Source: Gemmatimonadota bacterium (GTDB lineage: Bacteria > Gemmatimonadota > Gemmatimonadetes > Gemmatimonadales > GWC2-71-9). Taken from it: DNA of 64,000 bases. Each line of letters opens with the position of its first letter. The stretch's first letter is position 1. The translations under genes and the position numbers were made by a program. The stretch spans positions 1 through 64,000 of the forward strand of contig VGVQ01000018.1 in the NCBI GenBank assembly GCA_016874005.1. Direction: 5' to 3'. The notes beneath the pieces were generated by a model. That model did no database searches. It had not been told where the DNA came from and saw only the letters and a program-made list of their open reading frames with translations. Shown in pieces: positions 1 through 18,534 of this stretch.

Positions 1-160
1 GCTCCAACACCGCCGCCGCTGCCCACTGCCGCCTGGATCAATCCGCCCGTGCCAGCGATCAGGTCACCGGCCGATGCGCAGTAAACTCGAACCCCCTCGT
101 GTCTCGAACTCGTTGACAGGTTCCGTTCGATGGTGGCCGGACAGACGGTCACGCATACTA
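1..160. other. left margin, no gene assigned
   Basis: I see no gene here that I can defend. A minus-strand reading frame is open from a GTG at 152 to the window edge (about 50 codons, Gly/Ala-rich near the edge), and a plus-strand frame open from base 1 stops at 84. Neither has a recognisable motif. The stretch ends at the integron core site at 161, so it may be an attI region or the tail of an earlier cassette. No integron integrase is visible. Confidence 0.3.
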
Positions 161-167
161 GTTAGGC
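161..167 (+). other. integron core recombination site (GTTAGGC)
   Basis: The heptamer GTTAGGC fits the integron core consensus GTTRRRY and is identical to the right-hand core of the attC site at 1024-1030. Integron integrases cut between the G and the first T, so this site and the downstream attC would delimit one cassette of 162-1024. No GCCTAAC partner occurs within the 160 bases upstream. This copy is therefore either an attI site or the end of an attC that starts outside the window. Confidence 0.6.
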
Positions 168-212
168 CGCTGCACAATTGGTCCTAGTAGAGGTCATATT
201 CGGAGGCATGCC

Positions 213-890
213 ATGGAGCCCGACCTACTATCTCGTCTAGCTACACTTGAGCGCTCCAATCGCCGGCTCAGGACATCAGTCGTTCTCATTGGGTTGGCCC
301 TGTCGCCCTTGGCGCTCCTTGCTCTTTACCGATCACCCAACCTCCAGCCTACGTCTCTTCAGGCCGCTGACTCTCTCCGCGTCCGGCAGCTCATTGTGGT
401 CGACACCATGGGTGTCGTCCGTGCCCGGCTAGGCGCCCATTTGCCAGATGCTGTCATTGATGGCAGACGGCTTCGCCGTGGCGAGGATATCGCAGGGATC
501 CTGCTTTATGACGACGGAGGGCGCGAGCGGGGTGGCTATGTCACGTTTTCGCCCTCTCGCAATGTCGCTCTGACGTTGGACACGCGCGAGCGCCAGGTAG
601 CTCTGTTCGCCGCAGACCCCGATGATGGAGTGGCGGCACGAGTGTGGGGCGGCACTAACTGGGTCGAAATGCGAGCTAGCACCAAAGGAGCTCATCTCAA
701 TCTCGGCCAATCGAACGAACTTGTCGTTCAGCAGCCTCCCCTCAGCGAGGCTGAGGTTGGCGCCTTTTGTTCCGGCCTCAAGGACGCCCTGCGTCGGATT
801 ACACCGCCGCCCCCACAGGAAAAGCTTTTAGCGGAGTGCAAACAACGTATGCCAGACGCTGCCTGTCGGAGATGCCTCAGTTCTCAATGA
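213..890 (+). CDS. membrane-anchored hypothetical protein, integron cassette cargo
   Basis: This 225-residue protein has no function that I recognise. A hydrophobic segment at about residues 22-41 suggests a single N-terminal membrane anchor with the rest outside the cytoplasm. After it comes a soluble domain that starts with a beta-strand-rich stretch (LRVRQLIVVD, residues 56-65). The C-terminal end holds four cysteines within about 35 residues (one near 187, three near 208-220). The start is set by a GGAGG six bases before the ATG. The gene fills the cassette between the core site at 161 and the attC at 908, the usual layout for a promoterless integron cassette. Codon use is less GC-biased than in the chromosomal genes further right, in line with transfer. 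Confidence 0.7.
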   Translation: MEPDLLSRLATLERSNRRLRTSVVLIGLALSPLALLALYRSPNLQPTSLQAADSLRVRQLIVVDTMGVVRARLGAHLPDAVIDGRRLRRGEDIAGILLYDDGGRERGGYVTFSPSRNVALTLDTRERQVALFAADPDDGVAARVWGGTNWVEMRASTKGAHLNLGQSNELVVQQPPLSEAEVGAFCSGLKDALRRITPPPPQEKLLAECKQRMPDAACRRCLSSQ

Positions 891-907
891 ACCCAGTTAA
901 GGCAGCG

Positions 908-1030
908 GCCTAACCCGCATTTGCAGCTGACGAGCGCCTGAGCGCCTCAGCCGCCGCGCGATATATTCTTGTTGCCTGGCTGCGCGGCGGCTTCGGCAGG
1001 CGCTCGCAGCTGAAATGCAGTGCGTTAGGC
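908..1030 (+). other. attC recombination site (59-base element)
   Basis: The outer cores GCCTAAC (908-914) and GTTAGGC (1024-1030) are perfect inverted complements. Inside, GCATTT (917-922) pairs with 1013-1018, CAGCTG (924-929) with 1007-1012, CGAGCGCCTG (931-940) with 997-1006, and an 11-base arm (949-959) with 982-992. G923 and A930 have no partner and match the extrahelical bases that direct strand choice in attC sites. Unpaired spacers next to the cores (915-916 and 1019-1023) and a 22-base apical loop complete the fold. Its length of 123 bp is within the usual attC range. Confidence 0.88.
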
Positions 1031-1046
1031 CGCAACGGATACCGAA

Positions 1047-1391
1047 TCAGGCGGTTCGACCAGGGCACCAGATGAAACTCCGATTCGCAGCATCCAGCAT
1101 CAATAACCGGTACTTGAGGATCGCTTCAGCGCCACGAACCCATTCGAGCACTGGGCCTTGGAGCGAGATGGGCTCCGGGCACTCTGGCGACCGCTCCTCG
1201 AAACCCACGCCAGCGATGACTCGCTGGGCATCGGCGCGGGTGGCGGCGAATCTGGTTGGACTCGGGCCTCCGCCAAGCGAAGTCTGAGCACGCTCAATGA
1301 ATGGGGCCGAACGCTGCCGCGTTTCGGGCACCCCGGAGAGCGCGTGCTGGACCACCTCCATTGTACTCAGTGTGACAGGAAACTCAGGCAT
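1047..1391 (-). CDS. hypothetical protein coupled to an Xre-type regulator
   Basis: This 114-residue protein is not recognisable. It has no signal peptide or membrane segment. Its ATG lies inside the last codons of the regulator gene at 1384-1920 and the two overlap by eight bases, so translation is probably coupled. A longer open frame runs upstream to 1544, but that part overlaps the regulator, and the internal ATG at 1391 is the natural start. A DNA-binding gene followed by a small coupled gene next to an integron cassette suggests a toxin-antitoxin or accessory regulatory pair. No toxin motif is visible, so that remains a guess. Confidence 0.5.
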   Translation of the reverse strand: MPEFPVTLSTMEVVQHALSGVPETRQRSAPFIERAQTSLGGGPSPTRFAATRADAQRVIAGVGFEERSPECPEPISLQGPVLEWVRGAEAILKYRLLMLDAANRSFIWCPGRTA

Positions 1392-1920
1392 CGGGCGGCG
1401 GCCAGTCGAACGATGATAGATCCGGCACGGACGCCTGCGGGCCTGCGGTGAAGTAGGTTGGTGGCGAGGGACGGTGCTTGTCGCGATCGTCTTTCCGCAA
1501 TTCCAAAGTTCGCTCGAAGAAATGCATCTCGTGTCGCAGTACATGGATCGACGAGAACCCCAAGTCTTCCTTGACCGCTTCTACAGTCCGGCCTGGATCA
1601 CGGGCGGCGACGGCCTGGCAGAGGGCTTCAAAGAAGACTCGCGCTGCGTCGGCGAGCGGCTCGCTAATTGGCACATTGAACACCTCCATGAGCCCGCTCG
1701 ACGTGATGACATTCTTCTCAACAAGCCGGCTCAGCGTTTCAATGGTCGCCGCGCTCTTGCCGGACCGGTAGTCTGTGAGTAGACCGCGATCGACCCCCGA
1801 TCGACGGCTCTGACTCGTCACCGATTCCCCTGAACTCCTCAGCACCCTCGCAAGTCGCTGGGCAGCCGTAGCCCCGCGCCCCCGTTTCCGACCCTTCGAC
1901 TTCGCGTTGCTCCGTGTCAT
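1384..1920 (-). CDS. Xre/Cro-like HTH transcriptional regulator
   Basis: This 178-residue protein has a very basic N-terminus (residues 1-20, rich in Lys, Arg and Ser). A helix-turn-helix region follows at about 22-72, in which SQSRRSGVDRGLLTDYRSGK has the spacing of a Cro/C1-type recognition unit. The remainder is helical and ends in a Pro-rich tail. An in-frame extension upstream to 2055 exists, but the ATG at 1920 better fits a divergent arrangement with the AlpA-like gene at 2041, leaving 120 bp for two promoters. It probably controls itself, the coupled downstream gene and perhaps the element. The family assignment rests on the HTH pattern only. Confidence 0.6.
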   Translation of the reverse strand: MTRSNAKSKGRKRGRGATAAQRLARVLRSSGESVTSQSRRSGVDRGLLTDYRSGKSAATIETLSRLVEKNVITSSGLMEVFNVPISEPLADAARVFFEALCQAVAARDPGRTVEAVKEDLGFSSIHVLRHEMHFFERTLELRKDDRDKHRPSPPTYFTAGPQASVPDLSSFDWPPPDA

Positions 1921-2040
1921 CGTGCCCCCCTTAGCTGACCGATGGGGCAATGTCACCCCACCTGGGGCGAGTTTGCCGCCTTCCCCGAACAAGTCTAATA
2001 ACCTTTCGTTCCCTCTGGTCCTTCTCGGAGAAAACGGGGC

Positions 2041-2238
2041 ATGGCTACGAGGCAACTACTCAAGATCAGTGAAGTCGAGGAGATGACCGGCCTGCGCCGG
2101 GAAACGATCTGGCGCAAAGTTCGCGAGGGGAAGTTCCCGGGTGCGCTCCGACTTCCAGGCTCGAACGCGGTTCGCTTTCAGCGATCTGCGGTCGAGCGGT
2201 TCGTTGGCATTGCCGCTCACTCAGACGCCGCGGCTTAG
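2041..2238 (+). CDS. AlpA-family transcriptional regulator / excisionase-like protein
   Basis: This 65-residue protein is almost entirely a winged helix-turn-helix of the AlpA/MerR-like class. LLKISEVEEMTGLRRETIWR forms the HTH, followed by the typical wing (REGKFPGALRLPGSNAVRF) and a closing helix (AVERFV). AlpA proteins activate integrase or excision genes in prophages and in Gram-negative phage satellites. The gene lies just ahead of the primase-helicase. A purine-rich GGAGAAAA sequence precedes the ATG. As the first plus-strand gene of the replication module it is a likely switch for induction of the island. Confidence 0.82.
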   Translation: MATRQLLKISEVEEMTGLRRETIWRKVREGKFPGALRLPGSNAVRFQRSAVERFVGIAAHSDAAA

Positions 2239-2305
2239 CGACGGTGGCCTCGTTCCCGCTCTCCCCGACCCTCCGGCTCGCGGTTCAGCAGCTCGAGGTG
2301 TCGCA

Positions 2306-4141
2306 GTGACGGCGGCCGACCTGGCGATGCGCCTCCACGCCAAGCGGAACGGGCGGGGCTGGAGGGCCCAATGTCCAGCGCACAAGGACGACACGCCGTC
2401 GCTGACCATCGACGGGGGCGTGGATGGCCGGATTCTCGTTCATTGTCACGCCGGTTGCTCTCATGAAGCGATCCTGGCCGCCGTGGGCCTCCGATCGGGG
2501 GACCTCTTTCCCGCCTCAGCACCTCGCGCTGGTCGGCCAGAACTGTTGGCAACCTACGAATACCGGACGGCTGAGGGACAGCCCGCTTTTGAGGTGCGGA
2601 AGTTTCTCGACGTTGCATCGGGTGGTGGGCGAACGAAGACCTTCCGCCCGTTTCTGCCCGGCCGCGACCGACCCGGCCTCGACGGCCATCCGCTGGTCCT
2701 GTATCGACTTCCGGAGCTCCTGCAGCGCCCGGAGGGGGCGGTGGTTTTCGTGGTCGAGGGTGAGAAAGACGTCGATCGGTTGGTCGATCAGGGGCTCACT
2801 GCGACGACGAATCCTTTCGGGGCCGAGAAGTGGCGTCCGGAGTTCAGTGCCTGCCTTCGCGGCGCCGATGTCATCATCCTCCCCGACAACGATGACCCCG
2901 GCCGACGCCACGCGGACCAGGTCGCGCGGGCGCTATGGGGAACGGCGGCGCGGGTTCGGGTTGTGGAGCTGCCTGGCCTCGCCCCGAAGGGGGACGTCAG
3001 CGACTGGCTCGACGCGGGACACTCGATCGACGACCTCCAGAGGTTCGCAGACCTCGCGCCCGACTGGAACCCTGCTGCGGGTCCGGTCGTGTTGGCGGGT
3101 GGGCCGGAGAGCCATCCGGACGAGACAGCGCTACCGGATCCAGTCAGGTTGGCCGACGTGACTGCTACCCCGCTCGAGTTCGCCATCGACGGCCTGCTCG
3201 TGCAGCGCGAAGTGAATGCCATCGTCGGCGACGGTGGGTCGTTCAAATCGACGCTGCAGCTCGCGGCGGCGACCTTCGTGGCGGGTCATGCCCTCGCCTT
3301 CGACACCTTCGGGCTCACCCCTGGCCCGGTCCTGATCGTAAGCGGGGAGGACGGTCGCGACGTCATCAAGAACCGAATCGAGGCCATCGCACGCGGCCAT
3401 CGTCTCGACGTCGAGGCGGTGCTCGCCAACATGTACGTCTACGACGAAGGCCCCGACATCGACGACCCCCGTTGGCAGCTGCGGCTCGAGCAGGCCGCGA
3501 ACGACGTCCACGCAGTGCTCGCCTGCTTCGATCCCTTGGTCGACCTCTGCGGGCACGGGGTGGAGGAGAACAGCAACAGCGACGCCAAGCGCGTCACCCG
3601 TTGGCTCCGGCGCTTCATCCGAGAGACCGGGGCCACACCTTGGCTCTCGCACCACGTGACTAAGCCATCCGAAGGCCGCACCGATCGGAAACATCGGGTC
3701 CGGGGGGCCTCGGCCTGGAAAAACGCCACCCGGGCCTGTTGGTGGGCCGAGCCCTGCGACGGAGGCGTCGAGCTCGATCCGATCAAGGCCAATCGACTCG
3801 CCCGACCCGAGATACTCCGCCTCAAGACCACGATCGTCAGCGACGCCAACAAACCGCTGATGTGGAAATCGGCCCACTTCGGGATCGATCGCGACGGCGA
3901 GCTCGTGCACCGATCCGTGGTTGCCATTCTGAGGCACGTCGGAGCGGCCAAGGCCCCGCCGTCCCTTCGGGAAATAGAGGGCGCCTCGGACATTCACGGG
4001 CTCAGCCGTGACGCGGCTCGCGACGCCGTGGCGGTGGGCAAGGCCAAGGGCTGGCTCACGACGACACCCGGTCCGCGGCGGTCGCTCCTGCATTCGATCA
4101 CCGAGAGCGGGCGAGTCCGGTTGGTGCTCGGGAATGACTAG
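2306..4141 (+). CDS. fused primase (zinc finger-TOPRIM) and RepA-type replicative helicase
   Basis: This 611-residue protein would start and drive replication of the element. Near residue 25 a CHC2-like zinc-binding pattern is visible (CPAHKDDTPSL, then HCHAGCS). A TOPRIM-like domain follows at about 155-235 (VVFVVEGEKDVDRL, then ILPDNDDPG with acidic residues). The C-terminal half is a RecA-fold helicase with Walker A GDGGSFKST and a Walker B-like ACFDPLVDL. The start at GTG 2306 is chosen for an AGGTG five bases upstream. An in-frame extension to 2141 overlaps the alpA gene and looks non-coding. Directly downstream lies a cluster of short repeats that may be its origin. Confidence 0.85.
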   Translation: MTAADLAMRLHAKRNGRGWRAQCPAHKDDTPSLTIDGGVDGRILVHCHAGCSHEAILAAVGLRSGDLFPASAPRAGRPELLATYEYRTAEGQPAFEVRKFLDVASGGGRTKTFRPFLPGRDRPGLDGHPLVLYRLPELLQRPEGAVVFVVEGEKDVDRLVDQGLTATTNPFGAEKWRPEFSACLRGADVIILPDNDDPGRRHADQVARALWGTAARVRVVELPGLAPKGDVSDWLDAGHSIDDLQRFADLAPDWNPAAGPVVLAGGPESHPDETALPDPVRLADVTATPLEFAIDGLLVQREVNAIVGDGGSFKSTLQLAAATFVAGHALAFDTFGLTPGPVLIVSGEDGRDVIKNRIEAIARGHRLDVEAVLANMYVYDEGPDIDDPRWQLRLEQAANDVHAVLACFDPLVDLCGHGVEENSNSDAKRVTRWLRRFIRETGATPWLSHHVTKPSEGRTDRKHRVRGASAWKNATRACWWAEPCDGGVELDPIKANRLARPEILRLKTTIVSDANKPLMWKSAHFGIDRDGELVHRSVVAILRHVGAAKAPPSLREIEGASDIHGLSRDAARDAVAVGKAKGWLTTTPGPRRSLLHSITESGRVRLVLGND

Positions 4142-4150
4142 TCCTTTGGC

Positions 4151-4326
4151 AGTGCGCGAGTGCGCGGGTAGTGCGCGGGCGCTCACTGGCACTACCCGCA
4201 GCGCCCCTCAGAGCGCGCGAGTGCGCGGTTCTTATAACGGCCCGCGCACTCAATCGCCCCCGAATCCGGCCTCGGTTCTCGGTCGAGAACGCCGAAAACC
4301 AGCTCAGTGCGCGGGCCAGTGTGCGG
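4151..4326 (+). repeat. iteron-like repeat cluster, candidate replication origin
   Basis: The nonamer AGTGCGCGG recurs with at most one change at 4151, 4159, 4170, 4220, 4306 and 4318 in direct orientation, and once inverted at about 4241-4249. An A+T-rich patch (TTCTTATAA) lies between the copies at about 4229. Short repeats beside a TOPRIM primase-helicase gene are the usual layout of origins in plasmids and phage satellites. The function is inferred from this layout; the repeats themselves are directly visible. Confidence 0.6.
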
Positions 4327-4505
4327 TTCCAATCCGGAGGCCAGCCTTCCGAAACGGTCGGCGGAGGTGGGGCCATGAACCATCCCCGGACAGGCCAAAG
4401 GCCAACGGTGGCCCGTGGCCTAACGGCTCGGGGGTCCCCGCCCCCCCTGTTGGGTCCTTGCTGGGGAGCCGGGCCGGTCCGCGAAGCGGCGCATTCAGGT
4501 TCTAT

Positions 4506-4522
4506 ATACCCCCGTGGGGTAT
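4506..4522 (+). other. perfect 7-bp hairpin ahead of the terminase-like gene
   Basis: ATACCCC (4506-4512) is followed by a CGT loop and GGGGTAT (4516-4522). It lies 32 bases before the ATG of the terminase-like gene. It has no T tract. It could be a repressor site or an RNA hairpin that controls packaging-gene expression. No function can be assigned from sequence. Confidence 0.35.
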
Positions 4523-4554
4523 CGAGTTCTTCTTCGAGGGAGGCGGCCCCGATC

Positions 4555-5367
4555 ATGAATCGCCGAAAACTGACGCGGCATGACTTGGGCCGGGTCTGGA
4601 ACGTCTCGACCCGGACCCTTGCCGAGTACGAGAAGTTCGGCTTGCCCGTGGAGCGGGCCGGCCAACGGGTGGTCTACGACGCGGTGACGGCGGAGCGGTG
4701 GCTGGCGACCTTCCGGTGGCGGCGGTCGAGGACGCCCCGGAATCAGCGGGTGGGGTGGGTCCCGCCGATGACGGAACGGCAGCGAGCGGCGGTGGATGCT
4801 CGCGAGGCTCGTGAGCGGATGGCGGTTTCGGCTCGGTTCCACGAGGCCCAGCGGGAGCGGCTGGCTCGGCTAAGGGAGGAGTTGGCGCGCAACCGGGCTC
4901 TGCTCGAGGGCCTCGGCCTCCGGTCGGATGGGCAGCAGGACGCCCCCGTCACGCTTCGATCGTTGCCTCGGAGGGGTGGTGGATCGGGTACGCCGAGGCC
5001 TCTGGCGGCGCCAGGACCGGCGATCCCTCTGTCCGGTCGCTGTGGCAATGAGCCGAAAACCGTCAGTCGGGCGGGCGGCACGGCAGCGGAGGCCTCGCCG
5101 AGCCCTGACGTTGCCGTAGGAACGACGATCGGCGAGCGAGCCGATACCGGACCCGCTCCCACTCGCTGGATCGTCCGGGATCGGGCGGGGGATGTGTTAG
5201 GCCAGGTGGCGGCGACTCGGTGTGCCTGGGCCCGGTCGCTGGCGAGGAGGCGCTTTGGGCGAGGGGCGCGAACGGTCCAGCCGGCGGCCGAGGACGAGGC
5301 CCCGCCACGGTCGGCGGGATGCTCGGGCCCCGTCACTAGAGCTGCTGACCGTCAGCTAGGCCGCTGA
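4555..5367 (+). CDS. Nu1-like terminase small subunit / HTH protein
   Basis: In this 270-residue protein, residues 1-52 form a winged HTH that resembles lambda terminase small subunit Nu1: a helix-turn-helix ending in STRT, then GLPV, a basic wing with VVYD, and a closing helix with a Trp. A charged helical stretch (about residues 70-120, Arg/Glu/Ala-rich) could be a dimerising coiled coil, also as in Nu1. A Pro/Gly-rich linker leads to a small C-terminal domain around RWIVRDRAGDVLGQVAATR. The start at ATG 4555 follows GGGAGG by ten bases. In an island with integrase and primase, this gene would redirect a helper phage's packaging machinery. A plain HTH regulator is the main alternative. Confidence 0.55.
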   Translation: MNRRKLTRHDLGRVWNVSTRTLAEYEKFGLPVERAGQRVVYDAVTAERWLATFRWRRSRTPRNQRVGWVPPMTERQRAAVDAREARERMAVSARFHEAQRERLARLREELARNRALLEGLGLRSDGQQDAPVTLRSLPRRGGGSGTPRPLAAPGPAIPLSGRCGNEPKTVSRAGGTAAEASPSPDVAVGTTIGERADTGPAPTRWIVRDRAGDVLGQVAATRCAWARSLARRRFGRGARTVQPAAEDEAPPRSAGCSGPVTRAADRQLGR

Positions 5368-5405
5368 CTATGTCAGACGTCCACGGTCAAACAGGCCCCC
5401 GTGGC

Positions 5406-5625
5406 ATGAGCGAGAGCGGGAGCTCGGTTCGCTGGTTGGTGTTCGCCCTGGCGCCGGTTGGCGAGGTGGTGGCCGCCGACCGAACCGCGGCCTGGGGCGA
5501 AGCCCGCCGGAATCTTCCGGCTCCGGGTCGAGCGGGTCCAGTCGGTTGCGTCCGCCGCGGTCGCGGCCGAGGAGTCCGCGGCGATCGCTCGCACCAGGCG
5601 GCTCCGCGAGGACGATGACGAGTGA
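5406..5625 (+). pseudogene. small hypothetical gene with a frameshift
   Basis: Reading from ATG 5406 gives a segment (RWLVFALAPVGEVVAADRTA) that resembles the C-terminal domain of the preceding protein (RWIVRDRAGDVLGQVAATR). The good frame breaks near 5510. Moving by one base there continues as a plausible helical tail (FRLRVERVQSVASAAVAAEE) that ends at a TGA at 5623. The open continuation in the first frame is Arg/Gly/Pro-rich and looks spurious. The gene is thus a partial paralogue of its neighbour's C-terminus that is broken by a single-base indel, miscalled, or read by frameshifting. Confidence 0.5.
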
Positions 5626-5725
5626 GCCAGTTACCGGAGGCTAAGAACCCAGGCGTTCCGCTCGGCCTGAGTGCCGGCATGGGTCGAGATTTTCCACCAT
5701 GGAGAACTCGATCGGGTGAGCCGGT

Positions 5726-5959
5726 TTACCGGCGTGGGTATCGGTCGGTCTCCTGCTGGTCAAGCCGAGCGTCTACGATCACGCCGAGCAGCTCGCGCAA
5801 CGTGGCGCCGGCATCCCGCGCTCGGATGATCACCCCGGTCTCGGTCGCGGTCAGGTCGGGGTGGTACATCTCCAGCGCGCCGGCGATCTCCTGATGCGGG
5901 ACAGCATCGAGCACGGTGTCGAGGTTGGCGATGTGGGCGGTGATGTTCTTGGCGGTCAT
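5726..5959 (-). CDS. small hypothetical protein of the island
   Basis: This 77-residue soluble protein is predicted to be mostly helical and is acidic in the middle; I do not recognise its family. It lies three bases downstream of the two-HTH repressor gene on the same strand, so the two are probably co-transcribed. It might be a partner or anti-repressor of that regulator, but nothing in the sequence shows this. Confidence 0.5.
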   Translation of the reverse strand: MTAKNITAHIANLDTVLDAVPHQEIAGALEMYHPDLTATETGVIIRARDAGATLRELLGVIVDARLDQQETDRYPRR

Positions 5960-5962
5960 CGG

Positions 5963-6466
5963 TCAGCCTCCGCCGCGCCGCAGGTCGCCCGGGGTAACAC
6001 CGAGGGCGACGGCCAACTTGGCCAACTTGGCGATGTCCCTCGGCGTGACTCGGGCGGCGCTTGTGGAGGCGAGGCGGCTAACCGTCCGTGGGTTGAGGCC
6101 GGCCCGCTGGAGCAACTCGGCAAACGTGATGTCCCGCTGGCGACAAAGCGACCAGAGCCGGTCGCTGCTGACCCAGGGCCCCTGTGCGATGGGGGCCGCG
6201 GATTCTATCTGGACCCGAGCAACATCGCCGGCGGCGTCGGCCGGTTTCACGGTCGGGTCCCGGGCCTCGATGAGGTCGCCCGGCGCCACCTGCAACACCG
6301 CGGCGAGCTTGTCGAGGGTCACGAGGGACACTTGCGTGGTCGCATTGGTGCACAGGCGGTTCACTGTGGCCATGCTAAGGCCAGAGCGGCGGGCCAGCTC
6401 GCTTTGGCTCAGGCCGCGCCGCCCGACAACCTCGCGGAGGCAGAACCGAGTAGGCATCGGCTCCAC
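5963..6466 (-). CDS. repressor with two Xre-type HTH domains
   Basis: This 167-residue protein carries two Cro/C1-type HTH units. The first (about residues 8-65) contains LSQSELARRSGLSMATVNRL and ends PGDL. The second (about 100-160) contains ITFAELLQRAGLNPRTVSRL and also ends in a PGDL motif. A linker of about 35 residues joins them, and no peptidase or ligand domain is present. A tandem repressor would bind paired sites within one chain. The gene is divergent from the integrase, and the 101-bp gap holds two near-identical 12-mers that are good operator candidates. It is probably the maintenance repressor of the island. ATG codons at 6466 and 6457 are both possible starts. Confidence 0.75.
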   Translation of the reverse strand: MEPMPTRFCLREVVGRRGLSQSELARRSGLSMATVNRLCTNATTQVSLVTLDKLAAVLQVAPGDLIEARDPTVKPADAAGDVARVQIESAAPIAQGPWVSSDRLWSLCRQRDITFAELLQRAGLNPRTVSRLASTSAARVTPRDIAKLAKLAVALGVTPGDLRRGGG

Positions 6467-6476
6467 AATAGCCTAC

Positions 6477-6517
6477 GCACATGTGCCTTGACAAGGCTTC
6501 GCAGATGTGCCTAAGAT
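6477..6517 (+). promoter_or_regulatory. integrase promoter with paired operator-like repeats
   Basis: GCACATGTGCCT (6477-6488) and GCAGATGTGCCT (6501-6512) are direct repeats 24 bp apart, and the first contains a perfect palindrome (GCACATGTGC). Between and across them lie TTGACA at 6488-6493 and TAAGAT at 6512-6517, 18 bp apart, a good sigma-70 promoter that reads toward the integrase. A protein bound at both repeats would block it. The divergent two-HTH repressor is the obvious candidate. Confidence 0.65.
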
Positions 6518-6567
6518 GCTTCCCGACGCACCCCACAACCGTTTGACGGGATAGGAGGCCGCCCCCC

Positions 6568-7848
6568 ATGGCACGACAGGACCGCCGCGGCAGCATCGAA
6601 CCCCGAGGGCCGGACCGCTGGCGGGTTCGGGTCTCGCTCGGCCGCGACCTCATCACCGGGAAGTGGATTCGCACCAGCCGGCTCATCGAGGGCACCAAAC
6701 GGGACGCCGAGCGGGCGCTCACCGTGGCCCTGCAGCAGCAGGACCGCGGACCCGTGGTCCCCCGGGCGCGGCTCACGCTCGGCGCCTGGCTCGACGAGTA
6801 CGCCAAGACCTGGAGCGGCCACCTTTCCGGCCGGACCCGCGAGGCAGCCGGCATGATCCTCCCGCGGTATCTGCCCCCGGCCCTCTTGGAGGCGCCCCTT
6901 GGCCGACTCACCGCCCGGGCGTTCCAGGACCTCTACAACCATCTCGCCGGGCGGGAGACTCCGCTCGCGCCCAGCACCATCAACTACCTGCATCGGGTGC
7001 TCCGCGTCCGACTCAACAAGGCGGTCGTGCTCGGGTACCTCGGGCAGAATCCACTTGCCGCGGTCCGGGCCCCGATCGCTCGGCATCGGGAGTATCGGGT
7101 CTTCTCGCCCGAGGAAGCACGGCTCTTCCTGGCCGAGGCCGAGGGCGATCGGTTCGGGGCGCTGTGGATTCTCCTGCTCCTGACCGGGATCCGACCCGAG
7201 GAAGCGCTCGGCCTGAAGTGGGAAGACCTCGACGGCGCCAAGATCCGGGTCCGTCGGGCCTTGGTGCGCCTCGCCAAAGGGCGATGGGATCTCACCGCGA
7301 CCAAGACCCGCCGGGAGCGCTCGGTGACCCTGCCCGGCCCCGTCGTGCGGGCCCTGCAACGCCACAAGGCGAAGCAAGCGGAGCTTCGCTTGCTTCTCGG
7401 GACCGACTACGCCGATCACGGGCTGGTGTTTGCGGCGACCTTCGGCCAGCCGCTCCGGTGGGAGACGATTACGAAGCGCCACTTCTGGCCGGTGGTCGAA
7501 CGGCTCGCCTTCCGCCTCCAAGGACGGGCCCCGGTGACGGTCACCCGGAAGGGGCTCAAGCCCTCGCAGCTCGCCCCGGCCTTCAAGGCTGCCCAGGAAG
7601 CCGCCACGGCGGCCCTGGCCAAGACTGGCCTGGATCGGCTCCGGCCCTACGACCTCAGGCATTCGGCCGCTACCCTGCTCTTGGCCGCCGGGGAGCATCC
7701 GAAGGTGGTCGCCGAGCGGCTGGGGCACGTCCGGGTGACCTTGACGCTCGACACCTACAGCCACGTCTTGCCTGGCCTCGAGGAGCGGGCGGCCGAGCGA
7801 CTGGAAACCGTCATCTTCGGAGCCCCGGCGCAGCGGGTTGGGATCTGA
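6568..7848 (+). CDS. int: tyrosine recombinase, island integrase
   Basis: This 426-residue site-specific recombinase has an N-terminal SAM-like domain of Arg-rich type (about 1-165), then the catalytic domain. The catalytic residues are visible: Arg in LLTGIRPEEALGLKW, Lys in TKTRRERSV, the DLRHSAAT box, the LGH box, and nucleophile Tyr in LDTYSHVL. About 45 extra residues sit between the Lys region and the DLRH box, which is longer than usual. It would integrate and excise the island at the adjacent tRNA-Arg gene, whose 3' end is 109 bp downstream. It is driven by the promoter at 6488-6517 and followed by a strong terminator. Confidence 0.92.
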   Translation: MARQDRRGSIEPRGPDRWRVRVSLGRDLITGKWIRTSRLIEGTKRDAERALTVALQQQDRGPVVPRARLTLGAWLDEYAKTWSGHLSGRTREAAGMILPRYLPPALLEAPLGRLTARAFQDLYNHLAGRETPLAPSTINYLHRVLRVRLNKAVVLGYLGQNPLAAVRAPIARHREYRVFSPEEARLFLAEAEGDRFGALWILLLLTGIRPEEALGLKWEDLDGAKIRVRRALVRLAKGRWDLTATKTRRERSVTLPGPVVRALQRHKAKQAELRLLLGTDYADHGLVFAATFGQPLRWETITKRHFWPVVERLAFRLQGRAPVTVTRKGLKPSQLAPAFKAAQEAATAALAKTGLDRLRPYDLRHSAATLLLAAGEHPKVVAERLGHVRVTLTLDTYSHVLPGLEERAAERLETVIFGAPAQRVGI

Positions 7849-7858
7849 TCCCGGCGCC

Positions 7859-7880
7859 GATTGCCCCCGGATTGCCCCCG
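7859..7880 (+). repeat. tandem 11-bp repeat near the island end
   Basis: GATTGCCCCCG occurs twice head to tail between the integrase stop codon and the terminator, close to the tRNA-Arg attachment target. It could be an arm-type integrase binding site. This is inference from position only. Confidence 0.35.
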
Positions 7881-7900
7881 AAGGGCCGGAGAGTCACGAA

Positions 7901-7930
7901 GGGCCCCCGAGTCCCGGGGGCCCTTTCTTC
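7901..7930 (+). terminator. rho-independent terminator after the integrase
   Basis: GGGCCCCCG (7901-7909) pairs perfectly with CGGGGGCCC (7915-7923) across a five-base loop, followed by TTTCTTC. It ends plus-strand transcription from the integrase and keeps it out of the convergent tRNA-Arg gene. Confidence 0.85.
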
Positions 7931-7956
7931 TGATCGCATAATGGGTTAGGGAGAGG

Positions 7957-8030
7957 CGCGCCCGGCAGGAATCGAACCTGCGACCCACAGCTTAGAAGGC
8001 TGTTGCTCTATCCAACTGAGCTACGGGCGC
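7957..8030 (-). tRNA. tRNA-Arg (anticodon TCT)
   Basis: The cloverleaf is complete on the minus strand: a seven-base acceptor GCGCCCG (8030-8024) pairs with 7958-7964, the D-loop region reads AGCTCAGTTGG, the anticodon TCT is at 7996-7994, and the T-arm contains GGTTCGATTCC. CCA is not encoded. Its 3' end faces the integrative element and is the probable attachment site. Confidence 0.96.
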
Positions 8031-18436: not shown

Positions 18437-18534
18437 TGGCGGGGGCGTGTGGGAATCGAACCCACCAGAGCCGCCAGAAGCGTCTCCGTCGCGGTTTTGA
18501 AGACCGGCCAAGCCACCAGGCCCGATCCGCCCCC
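18437..18534 (-). tRNA. selC: selenocysteine tRNA (anticodon TCA)
   Basis: On the minus strand this 98-base tRNA has an acceptor stem longer than usual (GGGGGCGG at 18534-18527 opposite ACGCCCCC at 18448-18441), the anticodon loop CTTCAAA with TCA at 18500-18498, a long variable arm, a five-base T stem around GGTTCGATT, discriminator G and encoded CCA. These traits are specific to tRNA-Sec. It means the cell recodes some UGA codons. selA, selB and selD are not in the window. An open frame that runs through it is an artefact. Confidence 0.93.

Follow-up and report, generated by a model that had tools for sequence, protein, structure and literature searches.

The window analysed here is a stretch of 64,000 nucleotides of Gemmatimonadota DNA, which corresponds to bases 1-64000 of contig C18 (87,099 bp) in a 97% complete draft assembly of 49 contigs and 3.88 Mb. 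The initial annotation of this DNA had placed the host in the Gemmatimonadota from the sequence, and this placement holds; the family of the organism also includes the Gemmatimonadetes MAG AG3. Base 1 of the window is the first base of the contig, and the assembly contains no sequence to its left. At this end of the contig lie the right end of an insertion sequence (IS), a short stretch of DNA, a gene cassette that carries one gene and an attC site, and the genes of an element that adjoins the cassette, with a tRNA-Arg gene beyond them (Table 1). Farther to the right, a tRNA-Sec gene is found at 18441-18534, which points to an organism that probably uses selenocysteine.

Table 1. Features at the left end of the window
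Feature	Position	Strand	Remarks
IS3-like (rve-domain) insertion sequence, right end	1-125	+	terminal repeat ends at 125 (..CTCGTTGACAGGTTCCG)
Stretch between IS end and cassette	126-160		35 bp; by inspection
Left R-type core GTTAGGC	161-167	+	cassette starts at T162
Gene cassette unit	162-1024	+	863 bp; homologous cassette in AG3 (L045) with same ends
Ribosome-binding sequence GGAGG	202-206	+	ahead of ATG 213
Cassette gene ORF	213-890	+	225 aa; single membrane segment at the N-terminus, soluble domain after it
attC site	908-1030	+	123 bp; fold and covariance-model matches
attC R'' core GCCTAAC	908-914	+	7/7 complementary to R'
attC L'' arm	about 918-937	+	carries extrahelical G923 and A930
attC L' arm	about 1001-1019	+	pairs with L''
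attC R' core GTTAGGC	1024-1030	+	7/7 complementary to R''
Right flank of attC	1031-1046		R' then CGC
AlpA	2041-2238		element adjoining cassette
Primase	2141-4141		element adjoining cassette
Phage-type tyrosine integrase	6568-7848	+	37 bits with TIGR02249, hence not IntI
tRNA-Arg(tct) gene	7955-8030	-	its 3' part is the attR core
attR core of element	7955-7999	-	3' part of tRNA-Arg(tct)

The DNA between 162 and 1024 is an integron gene cassette that is complete, as had been proposed from the GTTAGGC at 161 and the attC site at the other end, and intact in its structure; the pairing of its two ends and the existence of a homologous cassette in another genome bear this out. The ends pair over 12 bp, with positions 162-173 (TTAGGCCGCTGC) being the exact complement of 902-913 (GCAGCGGCCTAA). 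The window contains eight copies of GTTAGGC. CGCTGC, which is the exact complement of the six bases before R'', follows the copy at 161 alone, and the chance of finding this continuation among the eight is about 8 x 4^-6 = 0.002. Because the other seven copies continue differently, the left border at 161 is specific. The unit holds a single gene, which is preceded by this GTTRRRY border and runs in the same direction as the attC behind it. The gene is known as a cassette elsewhere, i.e. in the AG3 array, while distant homologs are carried by the arrays of genomes G255 and G145. The cassette has a GC content of 60.5% versus 67.7% for the surrounding DNA. On its right side, R' is followed by CGC, therefore the next unit once began GTTAGGCCGC, which is cassette-like; no further attC was found to the right of 1030 in the window or in the rest of C18.

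The protein encoded by the cassette has a hydrophobic segment at about residues 22-43, preceded by arginines and followed by a domain with many short hydrophobic stretches. By the positive-inside rule its N-terminus would lie inside, and it is most likely a membrane-anchored accessory protein, predicted to face the periplasm. Searches against Pfam, NCBIfam and PADLOC returned no match, and a single-sequence structure prediction was set aside as poor (mean pLDDT 41.9). The protein family also occurs in other Gemmatimonadota, and is located inside cassette arrays in at least three other genomes. The AG3 array encodes a protein that is 84% identical over the best segment, and the distant homologs in G255 and G145 sit between attC sites, while most other distant homologs have no attC in the stretch examined.

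The attC site

The R'' and R' cores of the site conform to the consensus sequences RYYYAAC and GTTRRRY, respectively, and the long hairpin formed by the pairing of the L'' and L' arms carries extrahelical bases on its L'' arm. When the bottom strand of 908-1030 is folded, a structure of -49 kcal/mol is obtained in which G923 and A930 are bulged (z -6.83, 0 of 200 shuffles); with the flanks included, z is -7.22. All the positions given for the left core, the attC and its two extrahelical bases in the initial annotation were reproduced. The site has 28-29 arm pairs, while the best simulated site has 24; none of the sites in 2.56 Mb of simulated sequence with the same dinucleotide make-up equals its arm pairing.

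To describe the sites of the phylum, a covariance model (R1) with paired R and L arms was built from 23 other Gemmatimonadota attCs, which come from intI-linked or multi-site arrays, with the attC of the window left out. This model matches 908-1030 on the plus strand with 58.3 bits (E=2.6e-11) versus 18.7 bits on the opposite strand; it is the top R1 match of the whole 3.88 Mb genome, and no second significant match exists in the window. As the attCs of an array in a Gemmatirosa-like genome score 47-79 bits with R1, the attC of the window is a typical one. We also constructed a genus-only model (R2) from a single-type alignment (A3), which was used instead of a mixed genus alignment (A2) in which two attC types had their extrahelical bases out of register; R2 gives 68.1 bits for the site, so that it is matched by both of our own models. 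Furthermore, nearly all array attCs examined have single-base bulges on the L'' arm with a spacing of about 6 bp, and those of the window attC fall at the same two places. The only Rfam families found were tRNAs and tRNA-Sec, none of them attC-like. The exact pattern GCCTAAC...GTTAGGC with 40-100 bases between the cores does not occur in the genome; the spacer of the window attC is longer, and the other attCs of the genome have degenerate cores.

As a strong palindrome 3' of a gene, the hairpin might act as an intrinsic terminator, or might be one copy of a palindromic repeat, dispersed in the genome, with a mere resemblance to attC. However, the hairpin has no T-run and received no terminator call, and the terminator reading was thus ruled out; its DNA occurs only once in the genome; it matches the attC model in the correct orientation (58 versus 19 bits on the other strand); and a gene homologous to the one in front of it sits in a cassette array in AG3. 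The probability that the site is a terminator or a repeat is hence negligible. The covariance-model search, the bottom-strand fold and the test for a terminator or recurring repeat, which the initial annotation had suggested as checks, all came out in favour of the textbook attC that it described. Judged from these features, 908-1030 is a real attC, for which recombination by IntI is predicted, and which may even now be a substrate for an IntI provided in trans.

Integrase, scattered attC sites and the borders of the locus

The observation that the window carries no integron integrase was correct, and extends to the whole 87-kb contig C18. TIGR02249, run against all contigs of the 97%-complete assembly, found no intact intI. 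The sole intI-like ORF of the genome lies on another contig (C14:46746-47444; L004 1156-2244), and scores 253.8 bits in an alignment that spans positions 2-234 of the 315 in the model. Over 235 residues it shares 60% identity with an intact relative, and the IntI-specific insert is retained; the C-terminal HTLRH...Y half was not found in the three following frames. This intI is 3'-truncated and, by its sequence, is predicted to be incapable of activity. There is no attC within about 18 kb on either side of it. The other attCs of the genome are scattered on C12 (at 1023 and 3439; 108.5 and 94.1 bits), C28 (at 7913; 61.2 bits), C26 (at 4624; 48.7 bits) and C13 (at both contig ends; 31.9 and 27.7 bits with R1). 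They are mostly worn, and several have broken R boxes or have lost arm pairing. On C26 (L203 2560-4751), four attC-like sites, mostly weak, follow one another at intervals of 500-950 bp, which are occupied by small codirectional genes; this run is likely a fossil cassette array, which we keep as a relic and do not call an array. The genus also has an attC type of its own, about 138 bp long, the inner loop of which has a conserved GTCGCGGCCGCG...GGCGCGGCCGC stem (L106 1023-1161, L107 1501-1639, L178, L160, L162, L164, L170-L173). Attention to the genus as a whole revealed attC-like sites in five same-genus genomes, four of them at E<=0.001, and none of the same-genus genomes in the phylum sample has an intI at E<=1e-70.

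A complete integron, in which intI is linked to attI and attC, is thus not what the assembly contains, as its truncated intI lies on a different contig. Instead, the locus has an attC without a neighbouring intI, and resembles the CALIN class defined with IntegronFinder (PMC9024848, PMC8618304), in which an attC and a cassette gene are likewise found with no intI in range. It differs from this class in number, since IntegronFinder 2 by default needs two attCs and the contig has one, the others being on other contigs. Single-attC CALINs may be true positives, and CALIN counts are known to be inflated by draft contigs (PMC9024848).

At its left side the locus is bordered by the IS. The 3' end of a transposase gene occupies 1-84 and codes for its final 27 residues (...PTAAWINPPVPAIRSPADAQ, then the stop), and the same 99-127 bp are present at three contig ends of the genome, with the copies diverging directly after base 125. 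The same terminus is found in other Gemmatimonadota, where it adjoins a transposase whose last residues match the product of 1-84; this homologous transposase has the PF00665/PF13683 domains. We read bases 1-125 as the end of an IS3-like element, the IS family being assigned from the rve domains alone. The contig breaks at base 1 because this multicopy IS end sits there. The following 126-160 lack CGCAGCTGAA, and so are no L' arm of a local-type attC; there is a weak resemblance to the attI left flanks of relatives (..CTA/GTTAGGC), e.g. that of G225, in a comparison of 126-167 for which the relatives' attI sites are highly variable and 35 bp are left to compare.

These observations bear on whether the cassette might stand first in an integron that is still complete, with its attI and intI in the assembly gap to the left of base 1. 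Consistent with this, the contig begins within an IS that is present in three copies, the left junction ..ACTA/GTTAGGC is nearer to the attI of G225 (..AACTA/GTTAGGC) than to an attC arm, and in many relatives a contig break lies directly next to intI. On the other hand, the TIGR02249 search of the whole assembly yields only the truncated intI, the sampled same-genus genomes lack an intI at the threshold given above, and C18 has no second attC. We consider such a hidden integron unlikely, though it is the strongest of the alternatives. The initial annotation had left the choice between the left end of an array with an upstream integrase and a lone attC (CALIN); the latter is favoured, while an array with an intI hidden in the gap ranks lower.

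On the right side, where the element with its integrase, AlpA and primase takes up 1031-8030, the 45-bp attR core at the tRNA-Arg gene has an identical copy on another contig (C33:12228-12272; L210), and no repeat of the tRNA 3' end of at least 12 bases was found between 1 and 7900. Because of these two results, the cassette probably lies inside a tRNA-Arg integrative element, the other end of which is on C33. On C33, the distal 45-bp tRNA repeat is followed by transposase fragments and an apparent other IS end. A join that would put C33 immediately to the left of C18 via the IS was considered and dropped, as C33 ends in a different sequence that resembles another IS.

Non-classical chromosomal sites of the attG type have the consensus GWT. 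A lone cassette might hence have been put by an IntI acting in trans into a site of this type within the tRNA-Arg island, which would fit the single attC, the absence of an integron integrase nearby and the position inside an apparent integrative element; attG sites have been listed among the substrates of IntI (PMC12901181). Such an insertion predicts, however, a right border in which only G/TT remains, joined to local sequence, and the observed border is a full GTTAGGC followed by CGC, as before a cassette or attI. This origin therefore appears improbable, more so than a hidden integron.

We thus favour the reading of the locus as a decayed chromosomal integron remnant, i.e. a CALIN with one attC that probably lies within a tRNA-Arg integrative element, with a probability of about 0.7, because the assembly holds only a 3'-truncated intI, and its attCs are scattered on four other contigs. 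Two observations stand against a relic: the contig stops at an IS that is repeated in the genome, and an assembly gap there could hold an array or an intact intI; and the attC shows no decay, so that a recent insertion is possible. If the remnant reading is right, the cassette would have been mobilised as a circle, with IntI recombining the folded bottom strand of the attC at G/TT (1024/1025) with a partner site, and would have entered a chromosomal integron array in a Gemmatimonadota ancestor. The array would then have decayed through truncation of the integrase gene, the fragment of which is now on C14, through loss or scattering of the neighbouring cassettes, and through insertion of the IS3-like element 35 bp to the left of the cassette. 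We infer both the past IntI-mediated integration and this order of decay.

Integrons across the Gemmatimonadota

Integron cassettes had been described in the initial annotation as poorly documented in this phylum, a view that received no support from the literature or from the genomes. Gemmatimonadota are listed among the integron carriers (PMC8618304), and a large integron has been published for Gemmatirosa kalamazoonesis (PMC9024848). Among the sampled genomes of the phylum, 101 of 298 have an intI above the curated cut-off, and attC matches at E<=0.001 are found in 78 of the 102 genomes of the family. Integrons are common in the phylum, and the single cassette is an ordinary, well-preserved example of them.

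In all the 14 genomes in which the attC model found attCs near intI (G214, G225, G074, G029 (weak), G147, G022, G172, G104, G163, G169, G168, G202, G080 and G128), the intI is codirectional with the cassettes, i.e. the attCs are located 3' of intI on the same strand (loci L020, L024, L026, L028, L029, L031, L034-L036, L038, L040, L044, L091 and L101). An atypical same-direction arrangement of intI has been described for Treponema, in the chromosomal integrons of which intI points toward attI in the direction of the cassettes, as in the 14 Gemmatimonadota loci (PMC3607928). Integrons have also been lost from some Treponema species. Treponema belongs, however, to a different phylum, and the window itself is without intI. 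In the literature that we searched, no account of the codirectional orientation or of the frequency of intI in Gemmatimonadota was found, which in itself does not prove novelty.

The homologous cassette of AG3 (QHUK01000054.1, L045/L074) is part of a run of at least 14 attCs. It has the same outer ends as the cassette of the window, GTTAGGCCGCTGCA...TGCAGCGGCCTAAC, but the AG3 copy is damaged, with the central part of its gene and the distal attC half missing, whereas the copy in the window is intact. The AG3 copy (L045 3029-3266) is fused to a hydrolase-like gene. The two cassettes also differ in their attC arms, which are of the AG3 type (GCGCTTGAAGCTGGCGGG) in AG3, and in the window of a type (TTGCAGCTGACG) that also occurs in its genus and in the Gemmatirosa-like genome. 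The integron of the Gemmatirosa-like genome (G080:C3, on a 1.1 Mb replicon) has attC arms that are 84% like those of the window over both arms, among the most similar found, and that include TTGCAGCTGACG; unlike the locus in the window, it is complete, with intI and at least 18 attCs. A shared cassette gene is thus accompanied by a host-type attC tail in each of the two genomes.

A broader reading of these data would be that the Gemmatimonadota are a large, little-described reservoir of integrons, in which a codirectional intI is typical and attC tails are re-tailored or homogenised in each host while the gene is kept; we put this forward as a speculative and rather doubtful proposal. The cassette nevertheless serves as a doorway to the integrons of the phylum, which are frequent, with an intI in about a third of the sampled genomes, and in some genera the cassettes outlast the integrase. 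The presence of one cassette gene in two genera, each time with the attC tail typical of its host, provides a concrete case for studying how the uniform, host-specific attCs of chromosomal integrons arise.
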